Origin: Desulfuromonadales bacterium | Lineage (GTDB): Bacteria; Desulfobacterota; Desulfuromonadia; Desulfuromonadales; BM103 | NCBI GenBank assembly: GCA_014860225.1 | Contig: JACZKE010000017.1 | Span: 1 to 64,000 of the forward strand | Reading direction: 5' to 3' | DNA: 64,000 nt | Shown: positions 42,695 to 63,983 of the stretch, piece by piece | How positions within the stretch are numbered: the first letter of the stretch is position 1 | Layout of the letters: every line of letters starts with the position of its first letter | Notes under the pieces: generated by a model | What the model saw: the letters and a program-made list of their open reading frames with translations, nothing else | The model's database searches: none | What the model was told of the DNA's origin: nothing | Translations under genes and position numbers: made by a program

Positions 42695-43726
42695 ATGAAA
42701 ACACCCCTGGACACAACATCAAGAAATATTTACGAGGTAATCACAGGCGCATTCTGGGGAGGTGCGTGGCTGGTTGCTATCTGTCTACTGGTGAGCATTT
42801 ACATTTTAAAATGGTGGCCCGGCGACAGGTTAATGATCGTCCGTCTGGTCAACTATACTATGCCCTGGCTTTTGATCGTTTTGTTGCCGACGTTCATATT
42901 GGCCGGCGTAACGAACCGTAGGTGGTTGTTATTGACGCTAGCCATGTCGGTGATCTACGTCGTTTTAGCCTACCTGCCACTGTTCTTACCTAAAAACAAC
43001 CTCCCCGCGCAAACCTCAGGATTCAAGTTAAAGGTCATGAGTTACAATATCTGGTCGCGTAATCTGGACATGACATCGATCGCCAGGGTGATCAAAGCTG
43101 AAGACCCTGACTTACTATTATTGCAAGAACTTCCGAACGAGAAAACTGACAATATAGCTGCACTATTGGATAATATTTTTCCGAATACCGGGGAACACTT
43201 CATTTATGACTCAAAATCCTTGCTTGCAACTTTCAGTCGATTTCCACTGACTTCGGAACAGCTTGATAGGAAAAGATCAGTGCAAAGGCTGCTGGTACAT
43301 ACGCCTGCAGGTCCTGTTACAATTTTCAATGTTCATTTCTTGCGTACTGTTTTGAGGCGAGGTGATCACTGGCAACGGACTCATGGCAAGATTACAGGCT
43401 TGGTGAATAATGAAATTGCAGAAATTAGCGGGCCGGTCATTATGGGGGGGGACTTCAACATAACCGAACAGACAGAGACTTACCGGCAGATCTGCAAGTC
43501 TATGAAAAATGCTCATTCTCAAGCGGGACGTGGCTTCGGCTTCACCTTTCCATCCAGGTCGCGGAAGCTGAAAGGCATGCTTACTTTGCCACCGATGATT
43601 CGCATCGATCATCTGTTTTACAACGACTCACTGCTCGCCTATAATGCTGCCACCCTGAGCGACTCAGGGCAATCTGACCACCTTCCCATCGTCGCTGAGT
43701 TCATCCTGCATCCGTTAAAGGATTGA
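42695..43726 (+). CDS. membrane-anchored endonuclease/exonuclease/phosphatase family protein
   Basis: This 343-residue protein has three N-terminal membrane helices (about 15-100), then an EEP domain with all core motifs: MSYNIWSRN, LLLQELPNE, IFNVHFLR, GGDFNI, RIDHLFYND and SDHLPIVAEF. The active site is predicted on the periplasmic face. Family members hydrolyse phosphodiesters in lipids, nucleic acids or sugar phosphates. It overlaps the downstream convergent amidohydrolase gene by 26 bp. This is the second EEP domain in the window (the other is in the 15276 fusion). Confidence 0.85.
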   Translation: MKTPLDTTSRNIYEVITGAFWGGAWLVAICLLVSIYILKWWPGDRLMIVRLVNYTMPWLLIVLLPTFILAGVTNRRWLLLTLAMSVIYVVLAYLPLFLPKNNLPAQTSGFKLKVMSYNIWSRNLDMTSIARVIKAEDPDLLLLQELPNEKTDNIAALLDNIFPNTGEHFIYDSKSLLATFSRFPLTSEQLDRKRSVQRLLVHTPAGPVTIFNVHFLRTVLRRGDHWQRTHGKITGLVNNEIAEISGPVIMGGDFNITEQTETYRQICKSMKNAHSQAGRGFGFTFPSRSRKLKGMLTLPPMIRIDHLFYNDSLLAYNAATLSDSGQSDHLPIVAEFILHPLKD

Positions 43727-44813
43727 ACTGGAGATCATTCGCCGGCAACCTGTAAGATGCTTTGCCTTCCATGATAATCCTTTGAGGATTTGTGCTGGCA
43801 ATTTTGAGAAAGCTTTCCTCCGCTCCGGCGCAGGTCTCCTCCAGCGCATGGTAGAGCGCGGCCAGACATCTCCACTGTGGAAAATAGAGTGAATCAGAAC
43901 CAAACACAATCCGGTCGGCACTGATCTCCTTGAGCAATCGGCATAGCGTTGCATGTTGAACGGCGGACAGATCGATCATGACGTTGTCATGCCGTTCCAG
44001 AATCCGTCGCAATGTCTTGACGACCGGTTCGATTTGAACTTGTTCGTATCCATAGACTCCCGCATGGGCGATCACCACGGCAGTGTCGGTCAGGCTCCAG
44101 TCGACCAATTCCAGACGTGCCAGTTCGCCAAAGTCGGCTGACACAGGGGTGACCACATCCGGGCTTCTGCCGCCATGTATGATGACGCTCAGCCCATTCT
44201 CATGACAAGCAACCAGAATCTTCTCAATACGTGCTCTTCCGGAAGGAGTCTTCGGGTCAATTCCGGTGATGGCCGGATGAATTTTGATCGCTTTGATACC
44301 ATATCGTTCAACGGCAGTGGCGATGACGGCCGACAGGTCGTCATAATTGACTGCGTTCGGCACTGAATAACCGAATAAAAACCTGGGATCGCCGCCGAAC
44401 ATCCTGGCCATCATCTCCAGTTGTGTATCTGGCGACGACCCGGGACGACTGACCGGAAGCAGCAGGACCTGATCGATCCCACTCAGGTCCATATGGTCGG
44501 TAAGCACCTTTGTCCCGGTGTGCTTGTAGAGCTGTTGCATCGCGATGCGCAGGCATCGATGTCGAACCGTCTCGCTGATGAGCCTCCTGCAACTGGCGGG
44601 GAGATCATCTGCCGACCGCTCTTCTGCGATCCCGGGTGGGCTGTAGCTGGCTTCCCGAGAGCTATAAACACCTTCCATGCTTGAGTTTTTCTGATAGCTC
44701 AGATCATTGAAGACGACCTCGAAAGGATGTACATGCATATCGACCAGGGTATGGACACTTTTGATTTGCCTTATGCGTGAGAGGTAGTCCTCTGCTTGAG
44801 CTGCTCTCAACAT
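43701..44813 (-). CDS. TIM-barrel amidohydrolase (amidohydrolase 2/ACMSD-like)
   Basis: A 370-residue protein; ATG 44813 is one base after the adenylating-ligase stop (TTG 44822 is an alternative). Metal-ligand motifs of the amidohydrolase 2 family: DMHVHPFEV (H-x-H), AIKIHPAITG, VIIHGG, VVIAHAG and FGSDSLYF (Asp). Family members hydrolyse or decarboxylate acyl and aromatic acids, using one metal ion. Last gene of the six-gene etf/carrier-protein operon, so it may process the carrier-bound or released product. Substrate unknown. Confidence 0.85.
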   Translation of the reverse strand: MLRAAQAEDYLSRIRQIKSVHTLVDMHVHPFEVVFNDLSYQKNSSMEGVYSSREASYSPPGIAEERSADDLPASCRRLISETVRHRCLRIAMQQLYKHTGTKVLTDHMDLSGIDQVLLLPVSRPGSSPDTQLEMMARMFGGDPRFLFGYSVPNAVNYDDLSAVIATAVERYGIKAIKIHPAITGIDPKTPSGRARIEKILVACHENGLSVIIHGGRSPDVVTPVSADFGELARLELVDWSLTDTAVVIAHAGVYGYEQVQIEPVVKTLRRILERHDNVMIDLSAVQHATLCRLLKEISADRIVFGSDSLYFPQWRCLAALYHALEETCAGAEESFLKIASTNPQRIIMEGKASYRLPANDLQFNPLTDAG

Positions 44814-44814
44814 A

Positions 44815-46410
44815 TCATCCAACCATCATCCTGAGGGCTGCGTCACCGAGACTCTTTCGGTCGACTTTGCCGCGTTCATTCCGTGGTATACTGATGACCT
44901 TGTGCATTTTTTTAGGCATCATGTACCCTGGTATCCGCATCTTCAATTCGGCCATGACAGTATCCGGCCGCAGATCCGATAACGATTCATAGCAGGCTAC
45001 AAGTTCGTTTAATCCACTCTGTAAGTCTTCTTCAACGATAACAACAGCATCATCAACGCCATCAATCGACAACATGGCATGTTCGATCTCCCCCAGTTCG
45101 ATGCGATAACCCATGATCTTGACCTGGTTGTCCAATCTTGAGACATATTCATAATTGCCGTCGTGCCGCATCTTGACCAGATCGCCGGTACGGTAATACC
45201 GCTGGCCCCTGCCCGTCCCTGGTTTCGGCTCTATAAATACCTGGTTCGTCTTCACCGGATCGTTGAAATAGCCTTTAGCCAATCCCGCGCCGGCGATGCA
45301 GAGTTCGCCAATCTCACCTTCTCCGCCTACGCTCATGTCCTCTTTGAGCAGGAAAACTTCAGTATCCGTGCAGGGCCTGCCAATCGGTACCCGCTCCAGG
45401 GTAGATGCCGGCACCTTCGCAAGTTCGTAATACAAGGATACCCCGGTTGCTTCGGTCGGCCCATATGCGTTGATAAAACGTTTCTCAGGGTAGGTGTTCA
45501 TCCACTGCATAAGGTATCGAGTCGGCAAAGGCTCGCCTGCGAAGAGCACAGTTTTCAAGTTCGGCATCCGCCCGGACTTGAGAACTCCTGCTCGCGCCAG
45601 GTACATCAGTAAAGACGAGACGCCTTTCCAGACAGTAACCTTCTGTTCCTCCATGAATCTGACCAGGTTTTCCGGAAAAAGCATCATCATGTCGCTTGCG
45701 ATGCACAGGGTGCCTCCAGATCTCAGGGCAGCATGCACATCGAAAGTTGACATGTCGAAGTGAAACGGTGCGGTGCAGAGAATTCTGTCAGCCGGATTCA
45801 GCCCGAAGCAGGCAACCGCCCAGTCGACATAGGACCGGATGTTTTGATGGCTGATCATGACGCCTTTGGGATGACCGGTAGAGCCGGAGGTGTACATGAT
45901 GTAAGCCAGGTCGTCAGCCGAATTATCAGCTTCCGGAGGTTTTTGGGAACAGGCCAGGATCTGTTGCCATCCAACAATGCCGGACGCGTCCGTACCGGTC
46001 GACTGCTGTCTCGGGTCCAGCACTACGACCTGAATACCGGACATCGTTAATTCTTCAAGTTTGATCTGTTTGATTGTCGATTTGTCACAGATGAAGGCGC
46101 GTGGTTGACAGTCAGCGAGAATCGACATGCGGCGCGATTCTGGTGTTCTGGGGTCAAGAGGGACATAAATCGCATCGGCTTTTAGGATGCCGAGGATCGC
46201 TGTCAGGCAATGCACGGAACGCTGCATGCAGAAGGCGACACAATCCTGCCGCGTGACTCCGGCAGCTTTCAGGCAATGGGCCAAGCGGTTAGAAAGCTCG
46301 TCGAGTTCGCCATATGTGAGACAGTCCTGCGCGTCGGTTACCGAGATCTCCCCGGGCGCGTGACGGACATGTTCATCGATACAATGCTGGACAAGTCGAG
46401 GTTTCTTCAT
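44815..46410 (-). CDS. stand-alone amino-acid adenylation enzyme (NRPS A-domain type)
   Basis: A 531-residue A-domain. Core motifs: A3 YIMYTSGSTGHPKGV (about 170-184), A4 FHFDMSTFDV with Asp219 at the alpha-amino-binding position, A5 NAYGPTEATG, A7 YRTGDLVK, A8 VKIMGYRIELGEIE, and A10 NERGKVDRK with catalytic Lys515. No carrier or condensation domain is attached. By eye, the specificity pocket reads roughly D-M-F-K-L-A-A-G-V-K, which I cannot match to a known residue. Family knowledge: activates a (probably amino) acid as AMP ester and loads it on a carrier protein, here the ACP two genes upstream. Confidence 0.9.
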   Translation of the reverse strand: MKKPRLVQHCIDEHVRHAPGEISVTDAQDCLTYGELDELSNRLAHCLKAAGVTRQDCVAFCMQRSVHCLTAILGILKADAIYVPLDPRTPESRRMSILADCQPRAFICDKSTIKQIKLEELTMSGIQVVVLDPRQQSTGTDASGIVGWQQILACSQKPPEADNSADDLAYIMYTSGSTGHPKGVMISHQNIRSYVDWAVACFGLNPADRILCTAPFHFDMSTFDVHAALRSGGTLCIASDMMMLFPENLVRFMEEQKVTVWKGVSSLLMYLARAGVLKSGRMPNLKTVLFAGEPLPTRYLMQWMNTYPEKRFINAYGPTEATGVSLYYELAKVPASTLERVPIGRPCTDTEVFLLKEDMSVGGEGEIGELCIAGAGLAKGYFNDPVKTNQVFIEPKPGTGRGQRYYRTGDLVKMRHDGNYEYVSRLDNQVKIMGYRIELGEIEHAMLSIDGVDDAVVIVEEDLQSGLNELVACYESLSDLRPDTVMAELKMRIPGYMMPKKMHKVISIPRNERGKVDRKSLGDAALRMMVG

Positions 46411-46413
46411 TAT

Positions 46414-47559
46414 TCAAAGTCCCAGCCACCTGGAAATGATGTTGTATTGAAGTTCAGATGTTCCTGAATAGATGGTTGCAGCGACACTGTCGCGGAGATC
46501 TCTTTCTATCTCGTATTCAGTGGTGTATCCATAACCGCCATGAATCTGGACGGCATCAAGACAGGTCTGTTTGAGACACTCGCTGATGAATAATTTGCCG
46601 ATTGACGATTCAAGCGTCGCTCTTTTGCCCTGATCTTTCAAGGTGGCCGCCTTCCAACAGATCAATTTGCCGAGTTCCAGTCGCATCTTCATCTCGGCGA
46701 GTTTGTTCGAGACCGATTGGAACTTGCCGATCGACTGGCCGAAAGACTTGCGTTCTTTAGCGTAGCGGATGGAAGTCTCGAGTACCCGTTCCATAGTGCC
46801 GAGGTGAGCGGCCGGAAGGAAACTGCGCTCCCATTCCATAGATTCATTGAAAATCATTCCACCCTGCCCCTCTTTGCCCATCAGGTTGCCAGGAGGTATC
46901 GGACAAGCATCGAAGACCAGCTCACCGTTCTGCAGGGTGGTTAAGCCCATCTTTTTTATAGGATTGCATTGCTGAAAACCAGCGAATCCCTTCTCAACAA
47001 AACAGCAAGAGATCCCGCCGAGGGTTTTTTTGTCGGGATCGGTCACCGCGAAAACGATGACGACATCGGCGATCGGTCCGTTGGTGATAAACATCTTGGT
47101 GCCGTTGAGAAGGTAGCCGTCGCCGTTCCAGGTTGCCCGGGAACGCATTGACAATGCATCAGAGCCTGAATCCGGTTCGGTGATCGCCTGGGCAAAGATT
47201 TTCTTTCCACTGCAGACATCCGGTAGATACTTCTGCTTTTGCTCTTCACTGCCGAACATTCGGATCTGCATTCCGCAAAGGACCTGAGTGGCAATAGCGT
47301 GGACCAGGCCGGCATCCTTACAAGCATATCCGAGAGCGTTGAGGACAAGTGACATCGTCAGGAAATCACTTCCACCGCCACCATACTCCTCATCGAATGG
47401 CAGCCCCAGAAACTGCATTTCAGCACATTTGCGCCAGGCCTCTAAAGGGAACTCCCCGTTTTTATCGTATTCAGCCAAATCATAGTCGAGTTCATTACGG
47501 GCAAATTTTATAACCATTTCCCGCAGATCGACTTGCTCATCGGTGAATGAGAAGTCCAT
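46414..47559 (-). CDS. acyl-CoA dehydrogenase homolog, probable carrier-protein-substrate dehydrogenase
   Basis: This 381-residue flavoprotein starts on the base after the carrier-protein stop. Family motifs: AQAITEPDSGSDA, YLLNGTKMFITNG, and GGYGYTTEYEIERDLRD. The general-base glutamate of medium-chain enzymes (IYEGTSE) is Ser365 here (IYSGTSEL). A glutamate appears instead at 244 (SMEWERSFLPA), the position used by isovaleryl-CoA dehydrogenase and by prolyl-carrier-protein dehydrogenases of the PigA/CloN3 type. With a carrier protein and an A-domain alongside, it most likely oxidises a carrier-bound aminoacyl group, passing electrons to the adjacent ETF. Confidence 0.9.
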   Translation of the reverse strand: MDFSFTDEQVDLREMVIKFARNELDYDLAEYDKNGEFPLEAWRKCAEMQFLGLPFDEEYGGGGSDFLTMSLVLNALGYACKDAGLVHAIATQVLCGMQIRMFGSEEQKQKYLPDVCSGKKIFAQAITEPDSGSDALSMRSRATWNGDGYLLNGTKMFITNGPIADVVIVFAVTDPDKKTLGGISCCFVEKGFAGFQQCNPIKKMGLTTLQNGELVFDACPIPPGNLMGKEGQGGMIFNESMEWERSFLPAAHLGTMERVLETSIRYAKERKSFGQSIGKFQSVSNKLAEMKMRLELGKLICWKAATLKDQGKRATLESSIGKLFISECLKQTCLDAVQIHGGYGYTTEYEIERDLRDSVAATIYSGTSELQYNIISRWLGL

Positions 47560-47820
47560 TCATACCCCCAGAGAGCATTCAGTCTTCTGGGCGACCAGAG
47601 CCGAAATCCTCATAACCGATTCGAAATTTTCAGGGATCAATTCATCTCCAGCGATCTGAATGGAAAACTTCTCTTCCAGGAAACTCATTAAGGCCATGAT
47701 TCCGAAAGAATCTATAATCCCTGAATCGATAAGCGGGTCAGCGTCAGCCAGAGAACCAAGTCCTTTCTCAGCAAGGAGCTCCGTCATGATAAAACTTTTG
47801 ATCGTATCTTTGATCTCCAT
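47560..47820 (-). CDS. acyl/peptidyl carrier protein
   Basis: An 86-residue carrier protein (AAGGAG before ATG 47820). The phosphopantetheine site is DSGIIDSFGIMALMSFLEE with Ser38, carrying F where most have L (DSF). Its fold matches helical ACPs (EEKFSIQIAGDELIPENFES as helix II/III). It is the predicted carrier of the substrate activated by the A-domain. A Ppant transferase is not in the window. Confidence 0.92.
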   Translation of the reverse strand: MEIKDTIKSFIMTELLAEKGLGSLADADPLIDSGIIDSFGIMALMSFLEEKFSIQIAGDELIPENFESVMRISALVAQKTECSLGV

Positions 47821-47836
47821 TTTTATTCTCCTTTTC

Positions 47837-48844
47837 TTAGCGAGCAACGTTGATCCTTGTTGAGCCATCATCGTTAGAGTTCATCCACCTCAATGATCGC
47901 AGCTCAGCGATCAGAATCGGTACAATTTCGAAAAGATCCCCGACAAGTCCATAATCACAATAATCAAAAATTGGAGCATCCGGATCCTTATTAATTGCCA
48001 CTATGACCCTGGCATTCCGTATCCCTGCCAGGTGCTGAACGGCACCGGAGATGCCGCAGGCTATATAAAGATCAGGACTGACGACTTTACCAGTTTGACC
48101 GACTTGGCATGCATGGCTGATCCAACCCGAATCAACAGTTGCCCGGCTAGCTCCAAGAGCAGCCCCGAGCTCATCGCACAAGTCCTGCAACAGTGGCCAG
48201 TTCTCCGGACCTCCGATCCCGCGACCTCCGGAAACCACGATCTTGGCCTCTGTCAATTCCAGAGTGTCATCAGCTGTCTGGACAATAGCTCTTATATGAG
48301 TCCGCACTGGTATCTCCGGATTCTCCAGTCGAACTATCTCCGGAATATCCTCACCTTTGCGGCTGATTTTGAACAGATTCGGCCGTAGGGTTAACATGGC
48401 GGGATGATCGCTGACTCGCATCTCCGCAAGAACCTTACCGCCGTATATCGGCTTTGTTGCTGTCAGGCCATCATTCCAACTCAAACCGACACAATCCTGG
48501 GCCAATTCAACATTCAGGCGTGCCGCAAGAGAGGCGAAAGATTCCTTGCCGACCGCTGTTGCCGAACCGAGGACAACATCAGGGTTCAGGCTGCGCACGA
48601 GTTCGCAGGCTATTGCCACGTAACTTTCGCTGGAGTAATGCGCCAAGCTGTCATCTTCGCAAGCAAAAATCTTTTTGAGGCCGAAACCTTTGAGCTCTTT
48701 AGATAAGCCGGGATTGCAGCGACCAATGTAGAGAGCATGAAGGTCGGTGCCTGCCACGCTCGCAATGACGCGACCTGCAGAAACCGCCTCCAGGGCTGTA
48801 GGTTTTAATCCACCGCGCTGATCAAGCAGGACCAATATGCTCAA
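47837..48844 (-). CDS. etfA: electron transfer flavoprotein alpha subunit
   Basis: A 335-residue protein. TTG 48844 has GAGGAGG five nt upstream; the longer frame to 48901 has no better start. The C-terminal FAD domain is canonical: VVSGGRGIGG, GASRATVDSGW, GQTGKVVSPDLYIACGISGA, and FDYCDYGLVGD. It carries electrons from the neighbouring dehydrogenase to the respiratory chain or another acceptor. A dedicated ETF inside a carrier-protein cluster is unusual. Confidence 0.93.
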   Translation of the reverse strand: MSILVLLDQRGGLKPTALEAVSAGRVIASVAGTDLHALYIGRCNPGLSKELKGFGLKKIFACEDDSLAHYSSESYVAIACELVRSLNPDVVLGSATAVGKESFASLAARLNVELAQDCVGLSWNDGLTATKPIYGGKVLAEMRVSDHPAMLTLRPNLFKISRKGEDIPEIVRLENPEIPVRTHIRAIVQTADDTLELTEAKIVVSGGRGIGGPENWPLLQDLCDELGAALGASRATVDSGWISHACQVGQTGKVVSPDLYIACGISGAVQHLAGIRNARVIVAINKDPDAPIFDYCDYGLVGDLFEIVPILIAELRSLRWMNSNDDGSTRINVAR

Positions 48845-48857
48845 ACAAACCTCCTCT

Positions 48858-49631
48858 TTAAAGAATCCCCTCTGTTCTGAGTAACGGCACAAGCTTGCCA
48901 ACCTGTTCGGAAGGTTCGCCAGCTATAATCATTGCTGCCCGCTTCTGCTTCTGCAGAACCATCAAGATGGTCTCCAACCCCGGTTTTAGACTGCAGTCCT
49001 GGTCCCCCATATCATCCATAATGATTTCCCGGATCTGCTTTTTTTTAGCATTCAGGATATCCATAAGCTTCGGATAACGTGGAACGTTCAAGCCCTTTTC
49101 AGTCGTGAACATGGCTGGCAGGGTTGTCTCCATCCTGTATTGACCGCCTTCCACCTGACGATCGACCATTACATTTCTATCCTTAAGTGAAAAGCTGGTG
49201 ATCGAAGACACATGCGGCATATCCAGCAACTCGGCAATTCGCTCAGGAACTTGTGCAGCATCATCGTCGATAGCCTGTTTCCCGGCAAAAATGACATCTG
49301 GAGCGAGCTCCCGGATGACTGGGGCCATGATTTTTGCAACTTTGTATGCTGTCAGATGAATCGACGCAGAGGTTCTGATCCAGATCGAAGTGTCGGCTCC
49401 GACCGCCAGTGACTGTCGAATACATTTGACGGACTGCTTGTCGCCCAGGCTTACAGTGATAATTTCACCGCCAACAGACTTTTTCAACAATACGGCCTCT
49501 TCCAATGCAAACTCGTCATAGGGGTTCATGATGTATTCGAGTTGATCCGTCAGGATGGACTTATTATCCACAGTAAGTTGCAAGAGTGATGCAGTGTCAG
49601 GGACGCTTTTTATCAGTACAACGATCTTCAT
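48858..49631 (-). CDS. etfB: electron transfer flavoprotein beta subunit
   Basis: A 257-residue protein (GAGGATGGGTC before ATG 49631). ETF-beta features: MKIVVLIKSVPDTASL, NPYDEFALEEAVLLKKSVGG, GKQAIDDDAAQVPERIAELL (AMP/FAD-binding loop) and a C-terminal membrane-free tail. First gene of the operon etfB-etfA-ACP-dehydrogenase-A-domain-amidohydrolase. Its promoter should lie in 49632-50058. Confidence 0.93.
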   Translation of the reverse strand: MKIVVLIKSVPDTASLLQLTVDNKSILTDQLEYIMNPYDEFALEEAVLLKKSVGGEIITVSLGDKQSVKCIRQSLAVGADTSIWIRTSASIHLTAYKVAKIMAPVIRELAPDVIFAGKQAIDDDAAQVPERIAELLDMPHVSSITSFSLKDRNVMVDRQVEGGQYRMETTLPAMFTTEKGLNVPRYPKLMDILNAKKKQIREIIMDDMGDQDCSLKPGLETILMVLQKQKRAAMIIAGEPSEQVGKLVPLLRTEGIL

Positions 49632-53055: not shown

Positions 53056-55269
53056 TTACTTTTCACTGCTGATTGCCGGATTTAATGCTGTCCTTGCAGA
53101 CGCGATATCCGGCTTTTCGGTTTCTTCGAGGTAACTGGAATAATAGCGGTAATAATCCTCCTGATCATTTAATTGAACTGCGTTGACCAGGACGCCGAAA
53201 ATCCGTGCATTTACATCCCGTAGAGATTTAATGCAAGCCTGAGCCATCGGATATGTCGTCTTGCCTGCTCTCATGACCAGAATCAGGCCATCGAACACCC
53301 TGCTCAGGAGCCGCGAATCGGATACAGAAAGAACCGGAGCAGTATCACAAATAATCACATCAAAATCCTGGCTGGAATTTTCCAGAAGAATCTCCATGCG
53401 TTTCGAATTAAGAAGTTCATAAGGATTGGGCGGGATTGGTCCGGAAGTGACGACAACCAGATTGTCATGGGTGGTTTTACAGAGGATCGATTTGTCCGTA
53501 ATCCCTGACAGGTAGCTGCTCAAGCCGATCCGGTTCCGCAGTTTGAACACCTTATGCAACCTCGGCTTACGAAGATCAGCATCGATCAACAAGACCCGGG
53601 AACCCGCCTTGGCCATGGTAAAGGCCAGATTCACAGCGGTCGTGGTCTTACCCTCGCCGGAAACCGAGCTGGCCACCAGGATACGCTTGGGAGGTGCTTC
53701 TGCCGAAGCCATCATTAATGTTGTCCGGAGCGCATTGAAGCTTTCGGCGTACTCCGACCGTGGAGCGGTGCACACAATCTGGTTCATCGATTCCGCATCA
53801 CGATTAAAGGAGACACTCCCAAGTACCGGGACATCGAGGGCTTCACCAACCCCCTCGGCTGACTTGATCCGGTTATCCAGACTGTCGACCAGAAATGCGA
53901 CACCGACTCCACAAGTCAGCCCGACAAAAAGTCCCAGTATAGTATTGAGGACCATAGTGGGTTTGACGGGAATCTCTGGAACCTTGGCTTCTTCAACGAC
54001 CCATATGTTGACAGGCCTGGTTTCACCGGTAATGCTCTGGTCTTTGATCTTGGTCAGCAGAGCGTCATAGAGCTGGCGGTTGGTATCGAGCTCACGCTTG
54101 AGTTCCGAGTACTGAACATATTTCGCATTGATTGCAAGGGCCTCGGACTTGGTCTCGTTGAGCTGGCCCCTGATACTGTTCTCATTGGAAAGAGCCAGCT
54201 CATATTGGCTGCGCACCTTCTCAATGATCCGGTGGATCTCCTGGCGGCGTTTTTTCTTGAGGACCCCGAGGTCCCCCTGCGCTTTGATCATAACAGGATG
54301 TTTCGAGCCATATTTGCTCGATAACTCCATGATGTTCTGTTCAGCTCTGAGGATCTGGGCACGCAATACATCCAGACTGCTTCCCTCGGAAATCGAAAGA
54401 ACGTTTTCCGCTGCATCCAGGTTGCTGGAGACACGCATAACCTTGTCATAAAGGAGTTTGTGCTCCTTGGTCCTGGTCTCTGCCCGAACGAGGTCACCTC
54501 CCAGCTGTGACAGGGTTTCCGGAATAATGGTCACCCTGTCCTCCAGGGTAAGCAAGTTGTTGGCCTCCATATATTCCTGCAGACGATTTTCCGTTTTCTG
54601 CAGCTTGAGTCTCTCACTCTCGGCCTTCTCGGTCATCCACTCCAGATTACGCCGGGTGGCATCCATCTTCATTTCCAGGGTTTCTTCAAGGTATGCCTTT
54701 ATATAGGTGTTGGCAACCAGGGCCGCAAATTCAGGATTTGGGGATAGATAACTGATCGAGGTAATATGACTTTCCTGCACCGGTTGGACACGGACATTCT
54801 TAACCAACCTGGCAGCGACACTGTTAGCATGATCTGTATTTACCTCGACCAGTTTCTCTTCATTGGTGGAGGAATCATTGAACAGGCCAGTCAATATCGA
54901 GGTCCACTCTTTCAAGGACATACGGATATCAGTGATCAAAGTAGGTCCATCAGACTTCTGGATTGCATCGTAATTTTCTTCCAGACCTAGGATACTCACC
55001 ACACGCCGGGCAACCGCATGACTGCGGATCAACTGGAACTGGGTTTTGTCGAACTCCGGATCTCTAGCCGTGGCACGGTTGCTCCCGCTCAGGTTGTCCG
55101 GCTCGACACGCTCGATGATGATCTGGACTGCGCCTTCATAGATCGGTGTAGCCAGAAGGTTACTCAGCAAGACAATGCCGAATATGCCGCCACTTACGAC
55201 CAACGCAAGGTAACGGCGTTTGCGGAGAACTTGCCAGTATTCCCTTAATGAATTGGTTTTTGCACTCAT
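53056..55269 (-). CDS. Wzc-like polysaccharide co-polymerase and tyrosine autokinase
   Basis: A 737-residue fusion. Wzz domain with flanking membrane helices (about 20-45 and 425-450, MVLNTILGLFVGLTCGVGVA), a long coiled coil (200-400), then BY-kinase: Walker A SSVSGEGKTTTAVNLA, Walker A' LLIDADLRKPRLHKVF, Walker B FDVIICDTAP. The C-terminal tyrosine cluster EDYYRYYSSYLEE is the autophosphorylation site. Regulates chain length and assembly of the export machine with the Wza-like protein. Confidence 0.95.
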   Translation of the reverse strand: MSAKTNSLREYWQVLRKRRYLALVVSGGIFGIVLLSNLLATPIYEGAVQIIIERVEPDNLSGSNRATARDPEFDKTQFQLIRSHAVARRVVSILGLEENYDAIQKSDGPTLITDIRMSLKEWTSILTGLFNDSSTNEEKLVEVNTDHANSVAARLVKNVRVQPVQESHITSISYLSPNPEFAALVANTYIKAYLEETLEMKMDATRRNLEWMTEKAESERLKLQKTENRLQEYMEANNLLTLEDRVTIIPETLSQLGGDLVRAETRTKEHKLLYDKVMRVSSNLDAAENVLSISEGSSLDVLRAQILRAEQNIMELSSKYGSKHPVMIKAQGDLGVLKKKRRQEIHRIIEKVRSQYELALSNENSIRGQLNETKSEALAINAKYVQYSELKRELDTNRQLYDALLTKIKDQSITGETRPVNIWVVEEAKVPEIPVKPTMVLNTILGLFVGLTCGVGVAFLVDSLDNRIKSAEGVGEALDVPVLGSVSFNRDAESMNQIVCTAPRSEYAESFNALRTTLMMASAEAPPKRILVASSVSGEGKTTTAVNLAFTMAKAGSRVLLIDADLRKPRLHKVFKLRNRIGLSSYLSGITDKSILCKTTHDNLVVVTSGPIPPNPYELLNSKRMEILLENSSQDFDVIICDTAPVLSVSDSRLLSRVFDGLILVMRAGKTTYPMAQACIKSLRDVNARIFGVLVNAVQLNDQEDYYRYYSSYLEETEKPDIASARTALNPAISSEK

Positions 55270-55403
55270 GACATCGACTCCTTACTTATGAAGTCATCGC
55301 CTGCTCAAGCTTGGCAACATGTTTAGCGTTTGTTCCGTTGTTATCAATATTTAGTTTAGCCAGTAGACAACTTAGCCCGATTGAATAACCTCAAATCTGT
55401 TTG

Positions 55404-56213
55404 TCAGAAAAAACTCTCAGGTACAACCATGACATCATCTGGCTGCAGGACTTCATGCAGAGGTACCCGCTCAAGAACCTGCTCCTGACCATTGACCTTA
55501 CGAATGATTTTTACCTTTTTTTGCGATGCCAATTGGGTAAAACCGCCAGCCATGGTGATCGCCTTGATGACTGTCGTCCCCGGCTCAAAGGAATAAGCCG
55601 AAGGTCTATTGACCTGCCCGGTCACATAAATCACACCGGCTTTGGCAACTGTAACGGTGTCACCGTCGTATAGAGGAACATCAACGGCTGATTGATTCAT
55701 GTTCATAAGGTCGCCGAGATTGATCGTCTGAGTGCTCTCTTTTGGACCTGAAGCAGAAGCTGGACGTCGAATGGTCGCGATACTTCCGGCCCCGGGACTT
55801 AGACCTCCTGCTTTTGATATTGATTCCAGAAGAGTTGTCGGCCCGCTCAACTCATAAAGACCCGGGCGGACGACTTCGCCGATAATCATGACTTTCTTGC
55901 TGCGAAACTCCTCGACGAAGATTGAGACTTGCGGGTTGACGATATATTCGCCATCTAATTTATCTGCTATTTTGCGGGACGCCGCAGCAGTTGTCATACC
56001 ACCGACCTGGATGCCTCCTGCGAGCGGGAAAAGGATGTTGCCGTCATTATCAACACGAGCCACCGTGCTCATGTCCGGATGATCATAAATAGTGATTCTG
56101 AGTACATCTCCGGCACCGACCAGGTAATCGGCATCAGAGGCAATTGTGGGAGGAGCCCACACAGCAATTAGCAACAATGTGAAGATTACGGTCAGCAAAC
56201 GCGAGTTTCTCAT
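55404..56213 (-). CDS. Wza-like polysaccharide export outer-membrane protein (SLBB)
   Basis: A 269-residue protein (AAGGA before ATG 56213). Signal peptide LLTVIFTLLLIAVWAPPTIA without a lipobox cysteine. Poly-export domain YLVGAGDVLRITIYDHPDMS (about 32-110), then SLBB repeats (VMIIGEVVRPGLYELSGPTT; IYVTGQVNRPSAYSFEPGTT). The protein is short for Wza and lacks an obvious C-terminal transmembrane helix, so it may need another protein, probably the adjacent barrel, to form the outer-membrane channel. Confidence 0.92.
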   Translation of the reverse strand: MRNSRLLTVIFTLLLIAVWAPPTIASDADYLVGAGDVLRITIYDHPDMSTVARVDNDGNILFPLAGGIQVGGMTTAAASRKIADKLDGEYIVNPQVSIFVEEFRSKKVMIIGEVVRPGLYELSGPTTLLESISKAGGLSPGAGSIATIRRPASASGPKESTQTINLGDLMNMNQSAVDVPLYDGDTVTVAKAGVIYVTGQVNRPSAYSFEPGTTVIKAITMAGGFTQLASQKKVKIIRKVNGQEQVLERVPLHEVLQPDDVMVVPESFF

Positions 56214-57815: not shown

Positions 57816-59753
57816 TTAAGCCGAGTCAATGGCATGGCTCGGAAACCTGATTACACGTGGTTTCAGTATTCGGGAACGAATAATCATTTCATTTTTGTTG
57901 GCCCATTGAGGCTTGAATTCGGGAACAATTGACATTAGTATCGATATTGTCTGATCCCGGTCCATGGTGTCACACGCCTTGGCCAGGGTTTCCAACGTCC
58001 GCTTCAGATTTTCAGGGTCATGCCAACATGCAAGTGCAACGCAGATCTTTTCATGATTTGTCTTCAGCACGCCCTCGTTTTCATAAAGCAGTTCTTCATG
58101 AAGCTTCTCACCGGGTCGTAGACCGGTAAACTCGATATCGATATCTTTATAGGGTGTCATCCCTGAAAGCCTGATCAATTCTTCAGCGAGGTGCAACACC
58201 TTGACCTGCTGCCCCATTTCAAGAATGAAAATCTCGCCACCCTCTCCCATGCTTCCGGCCTGGAGGACCAGCTGGACAGCTTCGGGGATTGTCATAAAGA
58301 ATCTGGTCGCTGTAGGATCAGTGACTGTCACCGGACCTCCATTGCGAATCTGTTCCTGAAAAATTGGCACCACGCTGCCGTTGCTGCCAAGGACATTTCC
58401 GAAACGCACAGTGACAATCCTGGTCCGACTCGTTCTAGCCAAAGCCTGGACGTAAATCTCAGCAGCACGTTTACTGGCTCCCATGATGTTTGTCGGATTG
58501 ACCGCTTTATCTGTCGACACCATTACAAAGTGTTCTGCCCGGAAACGATCAGCAGCATCCACCACATTGCGACTGCCGATAACATTGTTCTCAATAGCCG
58601 AAACCGGGTTCAATTCGGACATAGGAACATGCTTGTAGGCCGCTGCATGGAACACGACTTCCGGCCTGAAATTTCTGAATACATAATCGACCTGCGAGGC
58701 ATTCTTGACGTCACTCAGACGAGGGATAAACTCAACATGCGGGAACTGTTTCTTGAGATCCCGCTCAACCTGGAACAATGGCGTCTCGGCACTTTCAAAG
58801 AGGATAACCGTGGAGGCCCCGAAGCCTGCTACCTGTCGACAGATTTCCTGTCCGATGCTCCCGGCGGCTCCGGTAACCAGAACTTTTTTGTTTCCAAGAT
58901 AGTGATGGATGCGATTTACTTCGAGACGAACCGGGCATCTGCCAAGTAGATCATCCAGACGCACATCCCGGACCGACTGGATCGACAACTGTCCATTCAG
59001 TATCTCCCCAACGTTCGGCAATATTTTGGACTTGACTCCTGCATCGTGGCACTGTCTGACAATTCGGCGCAATTCCTTCTGCCCGAGAGCAGGATTGGCC
59101 ATGATAACCAGGTCAACAGATTTCTTTTGCAGCACACTTTTCAAGCCATTGATGTCTGCCAAAACCTGAATGCCCTGGAACCGTTGTTTGACACGTTTGA
59201 TATCCTGGTCGACGAAGCCAATGACCTTCCATTTGAGATGTGGATTCTGCCTTATTTCGCGAACGATTGTCTGCCCAGCGGCACCGGCGCCGACGATCAA
59301 AACGTTTTCTGTCTCACGACTACAGCTTTTGCAGACTGATTGATAATACTCGCGGCTGATCCTGACAATTACTCTGTTACCGCTCATGATCAGGAAGCAA
59401 AGCAGGCCATCGAGGATAATAACAGAAGGTGTAATATGATCGAAGCCTCCCGGTAACCAGGTGAGAAAAGCCGCAAATAATAATGATCCGAGAACATTTG
59501 CCTTTACCAGGGAGACGAGGTCATGGATAGAAACGTATCGCCACCAGCCTGAGAGCAAACGCATCATGGCAAAACTGGACAATTTTATAATAATTAACGG
59601 GATCAAAACAAACGGTACAGTGGCAACCAGACCAGCCGTGAATGAGCCGTCGTAACGCAGATAAATTGCAAAGAAAAAAGCCGTAACGATCATCATAGTC
59701 TGACCTAAAAGGATGACGGCCTTACTAACTACCTTGAAAATAAAGTATTTCAT
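57816..59753 (-). CDS. CapD/PglF-like nucleotide-sugar 4,6-dehydratase
   Basis: A 645-residue membrane enzyme. Four N-terminal helices (10-135), a CoA-binding-like Rossmann domain (150-270, NVLIVGAGAAGQTIVREIRQ), and the SDR domain (from about 290) with GAAGSIGQEICRQV and the dehydratase signature STDKAVNPTNIMGASKRAAE. Family knowledge: converts UDP-GlcNAc to the 4-keto-6-deoxy sugar, first step of bacillosamine-type synthesis. The downstream-acting aminotransferase and acetyltransferase-like genes stand just upstream on the same strand. Confidence 0.93.
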   Translation of the reverse strand: MKYFIFKVVSKAVILLGQTMMIVTAFFFAIYLRYDGSFTAGLVATVPFVLIPLIIIKLSSFAMMRLLSGWWRYVSIHDLVSLVKANVLGSLLFAAFLTWLPGGFDHITPSVIILDGLLCFLIMSGNRVIVRISREYYQSVCKSCSRETENVLIVGAGAAGQTIVREIRQNPHLKWKVIGFVDQDIKRVKQRFQGIQVLADINGLKSVLQKKSVDLVIMANPALGQKELRRIVRQCHDAGVKSKILPNVGEILNGQLSIQSVRDVRLDDLLGRCPVRLEVNRIHHYLGNKKVLVTGAAGSIGQEICRQVAGFGASTVILFESAETPLFQVERDLKKQFPHVEFIPRLSDVKNASQVDYVFRNFRPEVVFHAAAYKHVPMSELNPVSAIENNVIGSRNVVDAADRFRAEHFVMVSTDKAVNPTNIMGASKRAAEIYVQALARTSRTRIVTVRFGNVLGSNGSVVPIFQEQIRNGGPVTVTDPTATRFFMTIPEAVQLVLQAGSMGEGGEIFILEMGQQVKVLHLAEELIRLSGMTPYKDIDIEFTGLRPGEKLHEELLYENEGVLKTNHEKICVALACWHDPENLKRTLETLAKACDTMDRDQTISILMSIVPEFKPQWANKNEMIIRSRILKPRVIRFPSHAIDSA

Positions 59754-61034: not shown

Positions 61035-62318
61035 TCACTCAAAAACTATTGTTTCTATGAAACTTTTTTGCCTGATAGCATCTGGATTGACGGTCTGTTG
61101 CATTACGGAACGCACCGTTTCACATGTCAGAAAAATGCAGTTTGTATCGAGTGTAGGATGAACCAAGAACATCAAGCTCGTTTCGCCGAGTTCACGGGCA
61201 ACGGGCAGACGTTGCATTGGGCCCAAACCTCTTTTTACAAATGCTTTCTCCAGGTAAATCTCGCTGCAGCTGCCACTGAAACAAGGAACGCCTGCGGCAT
61301 TGATTTCTGCAAGGATAGAGTCGCGGCTACAGCCGGGTTTGAGTACATCGGGACGAATGAAAATGTAATACTTGTAATATGCATGGCCGATATGATCCGG
61401 TGGAATCGTGACCCTTAAGCCAGGGAGGGTTTCAAGCTGTTGCGTCAGGATAGCGGCATGATGTCGACGGGTTGCAATCCACGAGTTCAATTTGCGGGTT
61501 GCAATCCGACCAATTGCCGCCTGTATCTCTGTCATCCGGAAATTGGTGCCAAAAGTATCATGCAGCCAGCGAAACCCGCAGGAGTCCCCTTTCAAGTTGA
61601 CTGCTTCATAGTTCTTGCCATGGTCTTTGAATGCCCAGGCTCTTCGCCAGACATCATCGTCGTTGGTCGTCAGCATCCCCCCCTCGCCGGCAGTGGTCAT
61701 GATCTTATCCTGGCAGAAAGAAAATGCAGCGGCATGTCCGATCGAACCTACCTGTCGACCTTTATAGACAGCTCCGTGAGCCTGTGCGCAATCTTCGATG
61801 ACCTTAAGCCCATGCTGTTCTGCGAGATCCATGATCGGGTCCATTTCGCAAGGCCAACCGGCGAGATGGACGGCAATGATAGCTTTTGTGTGGCGAGAAA
61901 GGACTCTGCCAACCGTCTCTGCTGTCAAGTTCTGGCTGTCCCTGTTGACATCTGCGAAAACTGGAATAGCTCCGCATCTGATAACTGCACTGCCCGTCGC
62001 CATGAACGTGCGACTGGGCACGATAACCTCGTCTCCCTCACCAATCCCCAGTGAGGTCAAGGCTAATTCAATGGCAACGGTACCATTCGCAAGGCAGATG
62101 GCATGGCTTACACCGATATAATCGGCAAATTCCCGTTCAAAGGCTTTACACTCATGTCCGGTCCAATAATTGACTTTCCCGGATTGAAGCACCCTGCAGA
62201 CAGCATCGATCTCCTCATTATCAAATTGCGGCCATGCCGCAAATACAGCATTGACTGGTATGCCCTCGCCTGCAAAGTGTTGTCTGGAGGGGCTGCCAAT
62301 TTGCGCCTTGTTATACAT
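61035..62318 (-). CDS. DegT/DnrJ/EryC1 sugar aminotransferase
   Basis: A 427-residue PLP enzyme from ATG 62318 (GAGGG upstream). Motifs: SGKVNYWTGHECKAFEREFA, EVIVPSRTFMATGSAVIRCG, the PLP-lysine region AAFSFCQDKIMTTAGEGGML, and FGTNFRMTEIQAAIG. Family knowledge: transfers an amino group to the 4-keto-sugar made by the CapD-like enzyme. Together they imply a 4-amino-4,6-dideoxy sugar in the polymer. Confidence 0.93.
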   Translation of the reverse strand: MYNKAQIGSPSRQHFAGEGIPVNAVFAAWPQFDNEEIDAVCRVLQSGKVNYWTGHECKAFEREFADYIGVSHAICLANGTVAIELALTSLGIGEGDEVIVPSRTFMATGSAVIRCGAIPVFADVNRDSQNLTAETVGRVLSRHTKAIIAVHLAGWPCEMDPIMDLAEQHGLKVIEDCAQAHGAVYKGRQVGSIGHAAAFSFCQDKIMTTAGEGGMLTTNDDDVWRRAWAFKDHGKNYEAVNLKGDSCGFRWLHDTFGTNFRMTEIQAAIGRIATRKLNSWIATRRHHAAILTQQLETLPGLRVTIPPDHIGHAYYKYYIFIRPDVLKPGCSRDSILAEINAAGVPCFSGSCSEIYLEKAFVKRGLGPMQRLPVARELGETSLMFLVHPTLDTNCIFLTCETVRSVMQQTVNPDAIRQKSFIETIVFE

Positions 62319-62386
62319 ACAAACCCTCACTTAAGGAACGTTACCACCCACCATGGAATTGGCCTGTTGCCAACATCGGTCAACAC

Positions 62387-62424
62387 CTAGCAGCCTGTCG
62401 GACTATCAATGAGCCGGCTGCTAG
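62387..62424. repeat. repeat family B, minimal hairpin copy
   Basis: CTAGCAGCC (62387-62395) and GGCTGCTAG (62416-62424) are perfect inverted repeats around TGTCGGACTATCAATGAGCC. This is the left-end hairpin of family B alone. The TAG stop of the acetyltransferase-like gene (62423-62421) is contained in the right arm. It may act as a terminator. Confidence 0.6.
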
Positions 62425-63065
62425 CGACTGATCCCCGGGCTGCCAACCTCATAAATAAAGTATCGTTTGACGACAAAGACAGGCATTTCTTTATAACCAA
62501 GCATGCGGTGTATCCATAATGCCGGGATGTTGGTGACTACATAATCACCATACGCTTTCGTGAAGCCTTTATCCTTGAGAAGTTTCAGGACGCCGGCCAT
62601 GAAAGTCGTCGTCAATGCCCCTCCCCGTTCGTTAGGTTTCATATAGAGGTCAAACATATAAACATCATCTGGCCCCATCTGTATGCCAAACCACTTGACC
62701 CGTGGATGGATGCATTGCATGCGTGAATTGGCCTTGTTGACATACCAGACATCTCCAATGATGTCCTGGCCCTTAACCAAAACAAAAGTCTTGAACCCCT
62801 GTTTAAAGTATTGCCCGGCCCTTTCATATCTACTTTTTAATGAATACCTGTAGTTAAGGTTTTCGAAGTTGTTCTCATCCAATTCGATAATTCTATAGTC
62901 CGTTCCATCGAAAGTTTTGATGCCCCCTTCAAAACTCGACAAATCTTTTTCTACCGGACAAACTCGCTCGCATTTGTAAAATGTCAATTTTACAGCCGAT
63001 AGAAACCCTGATTCTCTATAATGCTCACGGAACTGATAAAATCTGATCAACGGAGTTCTCAACAT
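62421..63065 (-). CDS. GNAT-like acyltransferase of the EPS cluster
   Basis: A 214-residue protein (AAGGTGATGTC before ATG 63065). The region FDLYMKPNERGGALTTTFMA (about 138-157) resembles the acetyl-CoA-binding turn of GNAT enzymes, followed by KGFTKAYGDYVVTNIPALWI and HRMLGYKEM, the usual C-terminal strand. In the pathway order it could acylate the amino sugar. It could also accept acyl groups other than acetyl. Family call is moderately sure. Confidence 0.65.
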   Translation of the reverse strand: MLRTPLIRFYQFREHYRESGFLSAVKLTFYKCERVCPVEKDLSSFEGGIKTFDGTDYRIIELDENNFENLNYRYSLKSRYERAGQYFKQGFKTFVLVKGQDIIGDVWYVNKANSRMQCIHPRVKWFGIQMGPDDVYMFDLYMKPNERGGALTTTFMAGVLKLLKDKGFTKAYGDYVVTNIPALWIHRMLGYKEMPVFVVKRYFIYEVGSPGISR

Positions 63066-63341: not shown

Positions 63342-63983
63342 CTAAAACGTCAAGGAATCCCGACGTTCCTCATCCAGGTCCCTTTCCGATACGTAAGAGT
63401 CAACCGAAACCCCTTCCCTTCTCACGACTGTTGATATCGTTTTAAGCAAGATTTTGATATCATGCAACAACGACCAGTTCTCAATGTACCAGACATCCAT
63501 CTCTAATCTTTGATCCCACGAGATGAAGTTCCTGCCGTGCACCTGAGCCCAACCGGTAATTCCTGGCCTGACCGAATTACGCAGGCTCTCTCTCGACGAA
63601 TAATAAGGAAGGTACTGCATGAGCAATGGGCGAGGCCCGACCAGGCTCATCTCTCCCTTTAAGACATTGAACAGCTCAGGCAGTTCATCAATGCTTGTGC
63701 CACGCAAGAATGACCCGAGACGCGTCAGGCGTTGCTGGTCAGACAGCAACTCTCCGTCTTCATTTCTTTCATCAGTCATGGTCCGGAACTTGTAAAGCGT
63801 AAACGGCTTGCCGTTAAGCCCGGGGCGCTGCTGAACAAACAAAACCGGACGACCAAGGCGAACGGCAACAAACAACGCCACCAGCGTCAGGAGTGGCGAA
63901 AATAAAACAATGGCTATCGAACCCAAGAAAAGGTCCAGACAACGTTTGGCGACAGAATTTATGGGAGATATACGTTCAACCAT
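63342..63983 (-). CDS. PglC-like bacterial sugar transferase
   Basis: A 213-residue small polyprenyl-phosphate glycosyl-1-phosphate transferase. One re-entrant N-terminal helix ([20 protein letters not shown]), YKFRTM at about 68-73, the catalytic Asp-Glu dyad in [10 protein letters not shown], and SLVGPRPLL. Monotopic PglC size, without the extra helices of WcaJ. It starts the lipid-linked repeat unit by attaching sugar-1-phosphate, plausibly the amino sugar made by the adjacent genes. The start is 17 bp from the window edge, so upstream context is unseen. Confidence 0.92.

Follow-up and report, generated by a model that had tools for sequence, protein, structure and literature searches.

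In the pyrrole branch of clorobiocin biosynthesis, CloN3, CloN4 and CloN5 act before transfer to a sugar, and the dehydrogenase Bmp3 belongs to the bromopyrrole pathway. The prolyl-ACP oxidase AnaB works with a stand-alone adenylation protein, AnaC, and a carrier, AnaD, according to the excerpted text of PMC3252866; PDB entry 6cxt holds Bmp3 with its carrier (excerpt of PMC10849742). Among acyl-CoA dehydrogenases proper, the catalytic base is Glu254 of isovaleryl-CoA dehydrogenase (IVD) and Glu291 of long-chain acyl-CoA dehydrogenase (LCAD), both on helix G, and the excerpt of PMC11153573 that gives these residues describes the two enzymes as the sole known family members with the base at that place and the human LCAD pocket as fitting longer and branched chains.

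The protein described here has its predicted base at the same place and is encoded on a 64,000-nt stretch of DNA, referred to below as the window, in a gene cassette lying beside genes for polysaccharide synthesis. A sequence-only reading of the window had singled out the shifted base. The observation stands and the class of enzyme is secure; the setting of the cassette is where the interest lies.

The dehydrogenase and its catalytic base

The dehydrogenase gene is a minus-strand open reading frame of 381 codons starting with an ATG at 47559, and the plus strand of 46414–47559 is interrupted by stops. The product contains acyl-CoA dehydrogenase domains (Pfam) and combines this fold with a glutamate at 244 and no acid at 365. 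Both residues lie where they had been read from the sequence, Glu244 in SMEWERSF and Ser365 in IYSGTSEL, with GAG and TCA as their codons. SMEWERSF contains two glutamates, 242 and 244, of which the latter is the relevant one because it aligns with Glu244 of PigA (entry 5zw0) and with an alanine in entry 6af6, whose title gives PigA with FAD and proline. By alignment it also occupies the position of IVD Glu254. Placement of the base at the isovaleryl/PigA position is upheld, and among solved structures the protein's closest relatives by fold are the prolyl-carrier-protein dehydrogenases. By homology, the side chain of Glu244 would face the substrate site.

Top-ranking in a sequence search of solved structures is AnaB (377 bits, 48% identity), followed at level scores by butyryl-CoA dehydrogenase (278.9 bits) and PigA (277.5 bits). 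The best NCBIfam match is PigA, at 385.9 bits short of its cut-off of 500; RedW (338 bits, cut-off 650) is likewise missed and is tied with the acryloyl-CoA reductase AcrC (341). An AlphaFold2 model (32 sequences, mean pLDDT 93, pTM 0.91) fits AnaB to 1.1 Å (Z 56.4), PigA 6af6 to 1.4 Å over 380 residues (1–381 on 1–381, Z 55.6) and human IVD 1ivh to 1.7 Å, with residue 244 inside helix 233–269. The fit to the engineered T255E/E376G medium-chain enzyme 1egd (1.6 Å) places residues 1–381 on 12–392, and the offset of 11 at both ends means that 244 and 365 would match 255 and 376 of that enzyme. Judged from the model, the base shift engineered in that enzyme seems to have a natural equivalent in the window protein.

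The two positions were surveyed in 121 homologue rows, or 118 distinct homologues after identical ones were dropped. An acid (Glu or Asp) is present at 244 and absent from 365 in 66 of these, the reverse pattern (acid at 365 only) is found in 48, three have no acid at either position, and in one the acid at 244 is accompanied by a gap at 365. Acids at both positions occur in none of the 118, and because they are thus mutually exclusive the Glu244/Ser365 pattern is not due to chance. One of the six seed peptides used for fetching spans Glu244, which biases the 66:48 ratio and leaves the mutual exclusion unaffected. All 24 close rows share Glu244 and Ser365, at a cut of 350 bits that leaves out L023, L069 and L070 (L numbers denote fetched homologue loci). 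L023 and L069, both from Verrucomicrobiota, have Glu244 with Ala365 and adjoining adenylation genes: their dehydrogenase precedes large proteins containing adenylation domains and may represent another use of this type of enzyme.

From the base shift, the sequence-only reading had predicted a branched or cyclic α-substituted substrate. As a rule this is weak: LCAD acts on ordinary straight long and medium chains too, and the acid at 244 is found in 66 of the 118 homologues. The majority of those 66 come from loci with no carrier match, and L004, a paralogue in the window's own genome, has an acid at 244 in such a locus. Both the LCAD case and the survey speak against reading the substrate from the base position alone, which we set aside. 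The branched half of the prediction gains some favour from the LCAD pocket, as described in the excerpt of PMC11153573; the cyclic half, proline, is disfavoured by the adenylation pocket considered below, where a lysine stands in place of the tyrosine of two solved prolyl ligases. We take the base shift to mark mechanism more than substrate shape.

A maximum-likelihood tree of 51 rows, with L013 and L128 both included although they are the same locus, unites the window protein, PigA and other carrier-linked enzymes in a clade of 27 rows with support of 100/100 and a stem of 0.46. It comprises clade A (the window protein with its nearest kin, 16 rows), clade B (seven rows at 51–54% identity, from L014, L015, L016, L118, L129, L130 and L135), L017, L023, L070 and PigA. 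PigA is the one characterised row in the clade and its long branch is flagged by the program; the branches of L070 and L023 are also long, with a further program warning of possible false attraction between PigA and L070. Outside the clade lie L004, L039 and L042, isovaleryl-like by motif only, in a tree that includes no characterised isovaleryl enzyme. It is because of this tree and of the adenylation and carrier neighbours, rather than the base position, that we regard a carrier-bound amino acid as the likely substrate, and the protein is very probably an FAD-dependent dehydrogenase of such a group.

The cassette in the window

The dehydrogenase gene lies fourth in a tight run of six genes on the minus strand, in the order EtfB, EtfA, carrier, dehydrogenase, adenylation and amidohydrolase (Table 1), and its product thus has stand-alone adenylation and carrier proteins as immediate neighbours. 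The carrier, for which no Pfam match was found, weakly matches solved peptidyl carriers, including PltL and PigG. HxH, Lys, His, His and Asp motifs bind metal in the amidohydrolase superfamily; because they are kept here, the amidohydrolase is probably catalytically active, and a search by sequence returned no solved structure matching it. Beyond the EEP-family gene, the few annotated genes (a PCMT methyltransferase and a Lon-like protease) are not of polysaccharide type.

Beside the window's EtfAB genes there is no CCG-domain iron–sulphur partner, its nearest homologue being 36% identical and on another contig. Located between EtfA and the carrier in relatives is an iron–sulphur CCG-domain oxidoreductase (L011:820–2883, L124:11105–13105, L130:11951–14038), which suggests that electrons there pass from EtfAB to the membrane. 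In another relative (L010:5152–6351), EtfA has at its N terminus a ferredoxin-like stretch of the sort that bifurcating types have; the window's EtfA has no such match.

Table 1. Features of the cassette and the neighbouring polysaccharide genes in the window
Feature	Position	Strand	Basis
EEP (endonuclease/exonuclease/phosphatase)-family protein, recurrent cassette neighbour	42695..43726	+	Pfam, neighbourhood comparison
Amidohydrolase PF04909 with conserved HxH, Lys, His, His, Asp motifs	43701..44822	-	Pfam, alignment
Stand-alone amino-acid adenylation protein, pocket code DMFKLAAGVK	44815..46410	-	Domain, family, pocket alignment
Aminoacyl-carrier-protein dehydrogenase, acyl-CoA dehydrogenase fold, 381 aa	46414..47559	-	Domain, homology, model, tree
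Ser365 codon TCA, catalytic-Glu position of short/medium-chain enzymes	46465..46467	-	Alignment, codon reading
Glu244 codon GAG, predicted catalytic base	46828..46830	-	Aligned with PigA Glu244
Stand-alone carrier protein	47560..47871, probable true start 47820	-	NCBIfam below cut-offs, solved carriers, alignment
Carrier Ser55 codon in DSFG, predicted phosphopantetheine site	47707-47709	-	Alignment
Electron transfer flavoprotein alpha subunit (EtfA)	47837..48901	-	Pfam and further comparison
Electron transfer flavoprotein beta subunit (EtfB)	48858..49631	-	Pfam
Wzc-like chain-length/tyrosine kinase and Wza-like export genes	53056..56213	-	Family matches
WbpM-like sugar dehydratase (Polysacc_synt_2)	57816..59753	-	Domain match
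DegT/DnrJ sugar aminotransferase	61035..62330	-	Domain match; under every NCBIfam cut-off
GNAT-fold protein, candidate acyltransferase from carrier to amino sugar	62421..63065	-	Model, phylogenetic linkage
Priming sugar-phosphate transferase (Bac_transf)	63342..63983	-	Domain match

The adenylation pocket

Over the pocket region of the adenylation protein the best solved match is a prolyl-carrier ligase, at 83 bits versus 71 for a D-alanyl ligase. The pocket keeps Asp235 and Lys517, which the excerpt of PMC12283262 gives as the rule for an α-amino acid substrate, so on its sequence the protein is likely to activate an α-amino acid. At position 278, a tyrosine in the solved prolyl ligases 6o6e_B and 7thn_B, the window has a lysine, and proline is therefore unlikely. 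Lysine is found here in all 14 readable clade-A pockets, the window's among them (one lacks position 235), asparagine in all six clade-B pockets, and tyrosine in L017, L023 and L069, with the L017 pocket, DLFYIAFV, near those of solved prolyl ligases.

Lys278 could pair with an acidic group of the substrate, and it occurs in Asp/Asn codes such as DLTKVGHVGK in the excerpt of PMC12283262. Aspartate or a similar acid is hinted at by this residue alone, the remainder of the code being mismatched, and we do not commit to it. Arginine, considered for those clade-B loci that carry an arginase-fold gene, is unsupported by their pockets, which have Asn278 where the same excerpt gives Asp278 for the Arg code.

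Occurrence in other genomes

In a search of 136 genomes of the same order (threshold E 1e-100), the dehydrogenase was found in 19: 15, the window's included, at 67–100% identity and four at 53–54%. Seventeen neighbourhoods were fetched, most of them compared with the window's genes only; duplicate contigs (L009 = L136, L012 = L134, L013 = L128) count once in the tallies of the 24 close rows, the pockets and the GNAT neighbours. The fullest order, seen in L124 and L133, runs priming transferase, PLP decarboxylase, ATP-grasp, EtfB, EtfA, iron–sulphur oxidoreductase, carrier, dehydrogenase, adenylation, amidohydrolase, GNAT, EEP-family, aminotransferase, LuxR and dehydratase. Each of the 12 neighbourhoods among them that span at least 17 kb has a gene homologous to those for Wzc, WbpM, DegT or the priming transferase in the window, in some cases only a DegT relative at 25–35%. 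L015, a separately fetched 17-kb clade-B locus, has no homologue of the window's polysaccharide genes.

The amidohydrolase is encoded in 13 of 13 clade-A genomes and in none of 85 others (98 genomes searched at E < 1e-20, two of the 85 giving weak matches near 1e-4). An arginase-fold gene stands beside the dehydrogenase in the four clade-B genomes of the order and in none of the other 132 (E 1e-60). In L118, L129, L130 and L135 this arginase/agmatinase-fold gene adjoins the dehydrogenase; clade A has instead an amidohydrolase after the adenylation gene. Neither gene was found in L014, L015 and L016, clade-B loci from outside the 136 genomes.

Several loci depart from this arrangement. EtfAB genes are absent from the stretch fetched for six neighbourhoods (L120–L123, L128 and L131) and oppositely oriented in L010 and L125–L127, and L016 has the dehydrogenase and carrier with no adenylation match within its stretch. 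On a metagenome contig (L013:9143–11867), the reading frames of the adenylation protein and the amidohydrolase are both broken into two pieces, by sequencing error or decay. Adjoining the priming transferase at L089:1098–3466 (contig C23, about 64.1–66.5 kb) are ATP-grasp and diaminopimelate-decarboxylase-like genes, which recur beside the cassettes of relatives and may make or attach another amino-acid-derived group. A search for viral copies gave 12 pattern matches and no relatives.

Polysaccharide genes and the GNAT-fold protein

On the upstream side of the cassette, from 50059 to past the end of the window on the same contig, are polysaccharide genes: CpsB, Wzc, Wza, a WbpM-like dehydratase, DegT, a priming transferase, glycosyltransferases, a flippase-type protein and a weak Wzy_C match. 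A 754-residue protein (50059–52323), whose sole family match is a sub-threshold TPR near its C terminus, adjoins CpsB and Wzc and is a candidate polymerase or ligase. An exosortase A polysaccharide locus was rejected for the window's genome, in which exosortase XrtA has no match; the relative L013 has two XrtA-associated proteins above cut-off. Among the literature matches listed, drawn mostly from outside subscription journals, none links such a cassette to a polysaccharide in its title or the opening of its abstract.

The GNAT-fold protein is displaced in the window, where 15 kb separate its gene from the cassette. Fourteen other distinct neighbourhoods have it, and in 11 of them its gene comes immediately after the adenylation or amidohydrolase gene. 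Its Pfam score of 16.9 bits is under the cut-off of 20.7, and in its family of 15, 11 members match with E values of 0.1 or lower (best 7.7e-6). The best Foldseek matches of its model (three sequences, mean pLDDT 77) are mostly GNATs, with TM-scores of about 0.4–0.6; a glucosamine N-acetyltransferase is among the best and WecD is at rank 27. Of the 19 genomes with the dehydrogenase, 17 encode this protein (G039 and G077 being the exceptions), as do none of the 117 without it (136 related genomes; Fisher P = 9e-20, uncorrected for kinship), where zero means no close relative rather than no GNAT, the profile having been built from cassette neighbourhoods.

Proposed pathway and alternatives

The enzyme class, base position, conserved cassette and polysaccharide setting stand on sequence, model and tree. 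On balance we favour a scheme in which a carrier-bound aminoacyl group is oxidised by the dehydrogenase and moved by the GNAT-fold protein to an amino sugar of the exopolysaccharide; of the cassette's role in sugar decoration as such, our judgement is evenly poised. The adenylation protein would activate an α-amino acid and load it onto Ser55 of the carrier, Glu244 would take the α proton as FAD accepts the hydride, and EtfAB would remove the electrons. The amidohydrolase would alter the loaded or the released group. The GNAT-fold acyltransferase would then acylate the amino group of a 4-amino sugar with the oxidised aminoacyl moiety, the sugar being supplied by the WbpM-like dehydratase and DegT aminotransferase and destined, once decorated, for the exopolysaccharide.

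We propose loading and oxidation because the homology is strong. Substrate, product, the amidohydrolase step and transfer to sugar we infer, the transfer because of the phylogenetic linkage of the GNAT-fold protein, its fold, and the dehydratase and aminotransferase pair. Such pairs make 4-amino sugars in known pathways; GNAT enzymes usually take acyl-CoA. A more specific form is possible, and we hold it only tentatively: the cassette, mostly within one bacterial order, would oxidise an acidic or otherwise non-prolyl amino acid at the α–β bond, and a carrier-using GNAT would attach the resulting group to an exopolysaccharide sugar at its 4-amino position. Around the same core, versions of the cassette would differ in their adenylation pockets and in whether they include an amidohydrolase, an arginase-fold hydrolase or no hydrolase of either kind.

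The polysaccharide placement could instead reflect co-regulation, the product being a free small molecule, such as a signal or pigment, perhaps released by the amidohydrolase. That enzyme goes with clade A without exception in the 98 genomes, and the relatives that have been characterised act in small-molecule pathways, those of prodigiosin and anatoxin for example; the recurring partners are nonetheless the GNAT and sugar genes, in neighbourhoods mostly compared with the window's genes only, and we consider this explanation unlikely. A little more doubtful still is that the enzyme is a prolyl-carrier-protein dehydrogenase, which like PigA, AnaB and Bmp3 would make a pyrroline- or pyrrole-2-carboxyl-carrier protein, the ring then decorating the polysaccharide. 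Both the dehydrogenase fold and the region of the adenylation pocket do have proline-acting enzymes as their closest solved relatives, and the related cassettes L017, L023 and L069 have the prolyl-type Tyr278, with an L017 pocket to match; the uniform Lys278 of clade A and Asn278 of clade B, set against the tyrosine of the two prolyl ligases, point away from it. An isovaleryl-type branched-chain acyl-CoA dehydrogenase that merely lies close to carrier genes would share the base position and account for the 1.7 Å fit to the human enzyme. It is highly improbable, given that adenylation and carrier genes accompany the enzyme across many genomes and that the rows isovaleryl-like by motif fall outside the fully supported clade.

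If oxidation on a carrier followed by transfer to an exopolysaccharide sugar is true, the NRPS-style chemistry familiar from pigments, toxins and antibiotics is also used in making parts of the polysaccharides on bacterial surfaces, and the cassette would offer a testable route to polysaccharide substituents so far unassigned. For annotation it would mean that an acyl-CoA dehydrogenase with EtfAB near polysaccharide genes is not necessarily a fatty-acid or leucine enzyme.

Comparison with known systems

AnaB (PDB 4irn) resembles the window protein in fold, in the glutamate at the base position and in the serine of YSGTSE; the two differ in sequence (48% identity), in the window's non-prolyl pocket, in its EtfAB and amidohydrolase, and in the polysaccharide genes alongside. 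PigA, an L-prolyl-PCP dehydrogenase (PDB 5zw0, 5zw2 and 6af6), shares the numbering and Glu244, but at 40% identity the window protein scores below the equivalog cut-off, and PigA serves prodigiosin. Bmp3, 38% identical, likewise has an acyl-CoA dehydrogenase fold that oxidises a carrier-bound amino acid. Isovaleryl-CoA and long-chain acyl-CoA dehydrogenases have the catalytic glutamate at the same place and differ in taking CoA substrates. The pyrrole branch of clorobiocin shares with the proposed scheme a carrier-bound, oxidised amino acid that is passed to a sugar; its product is an antibiotic, not a polymer, and its transferase is of another kind.
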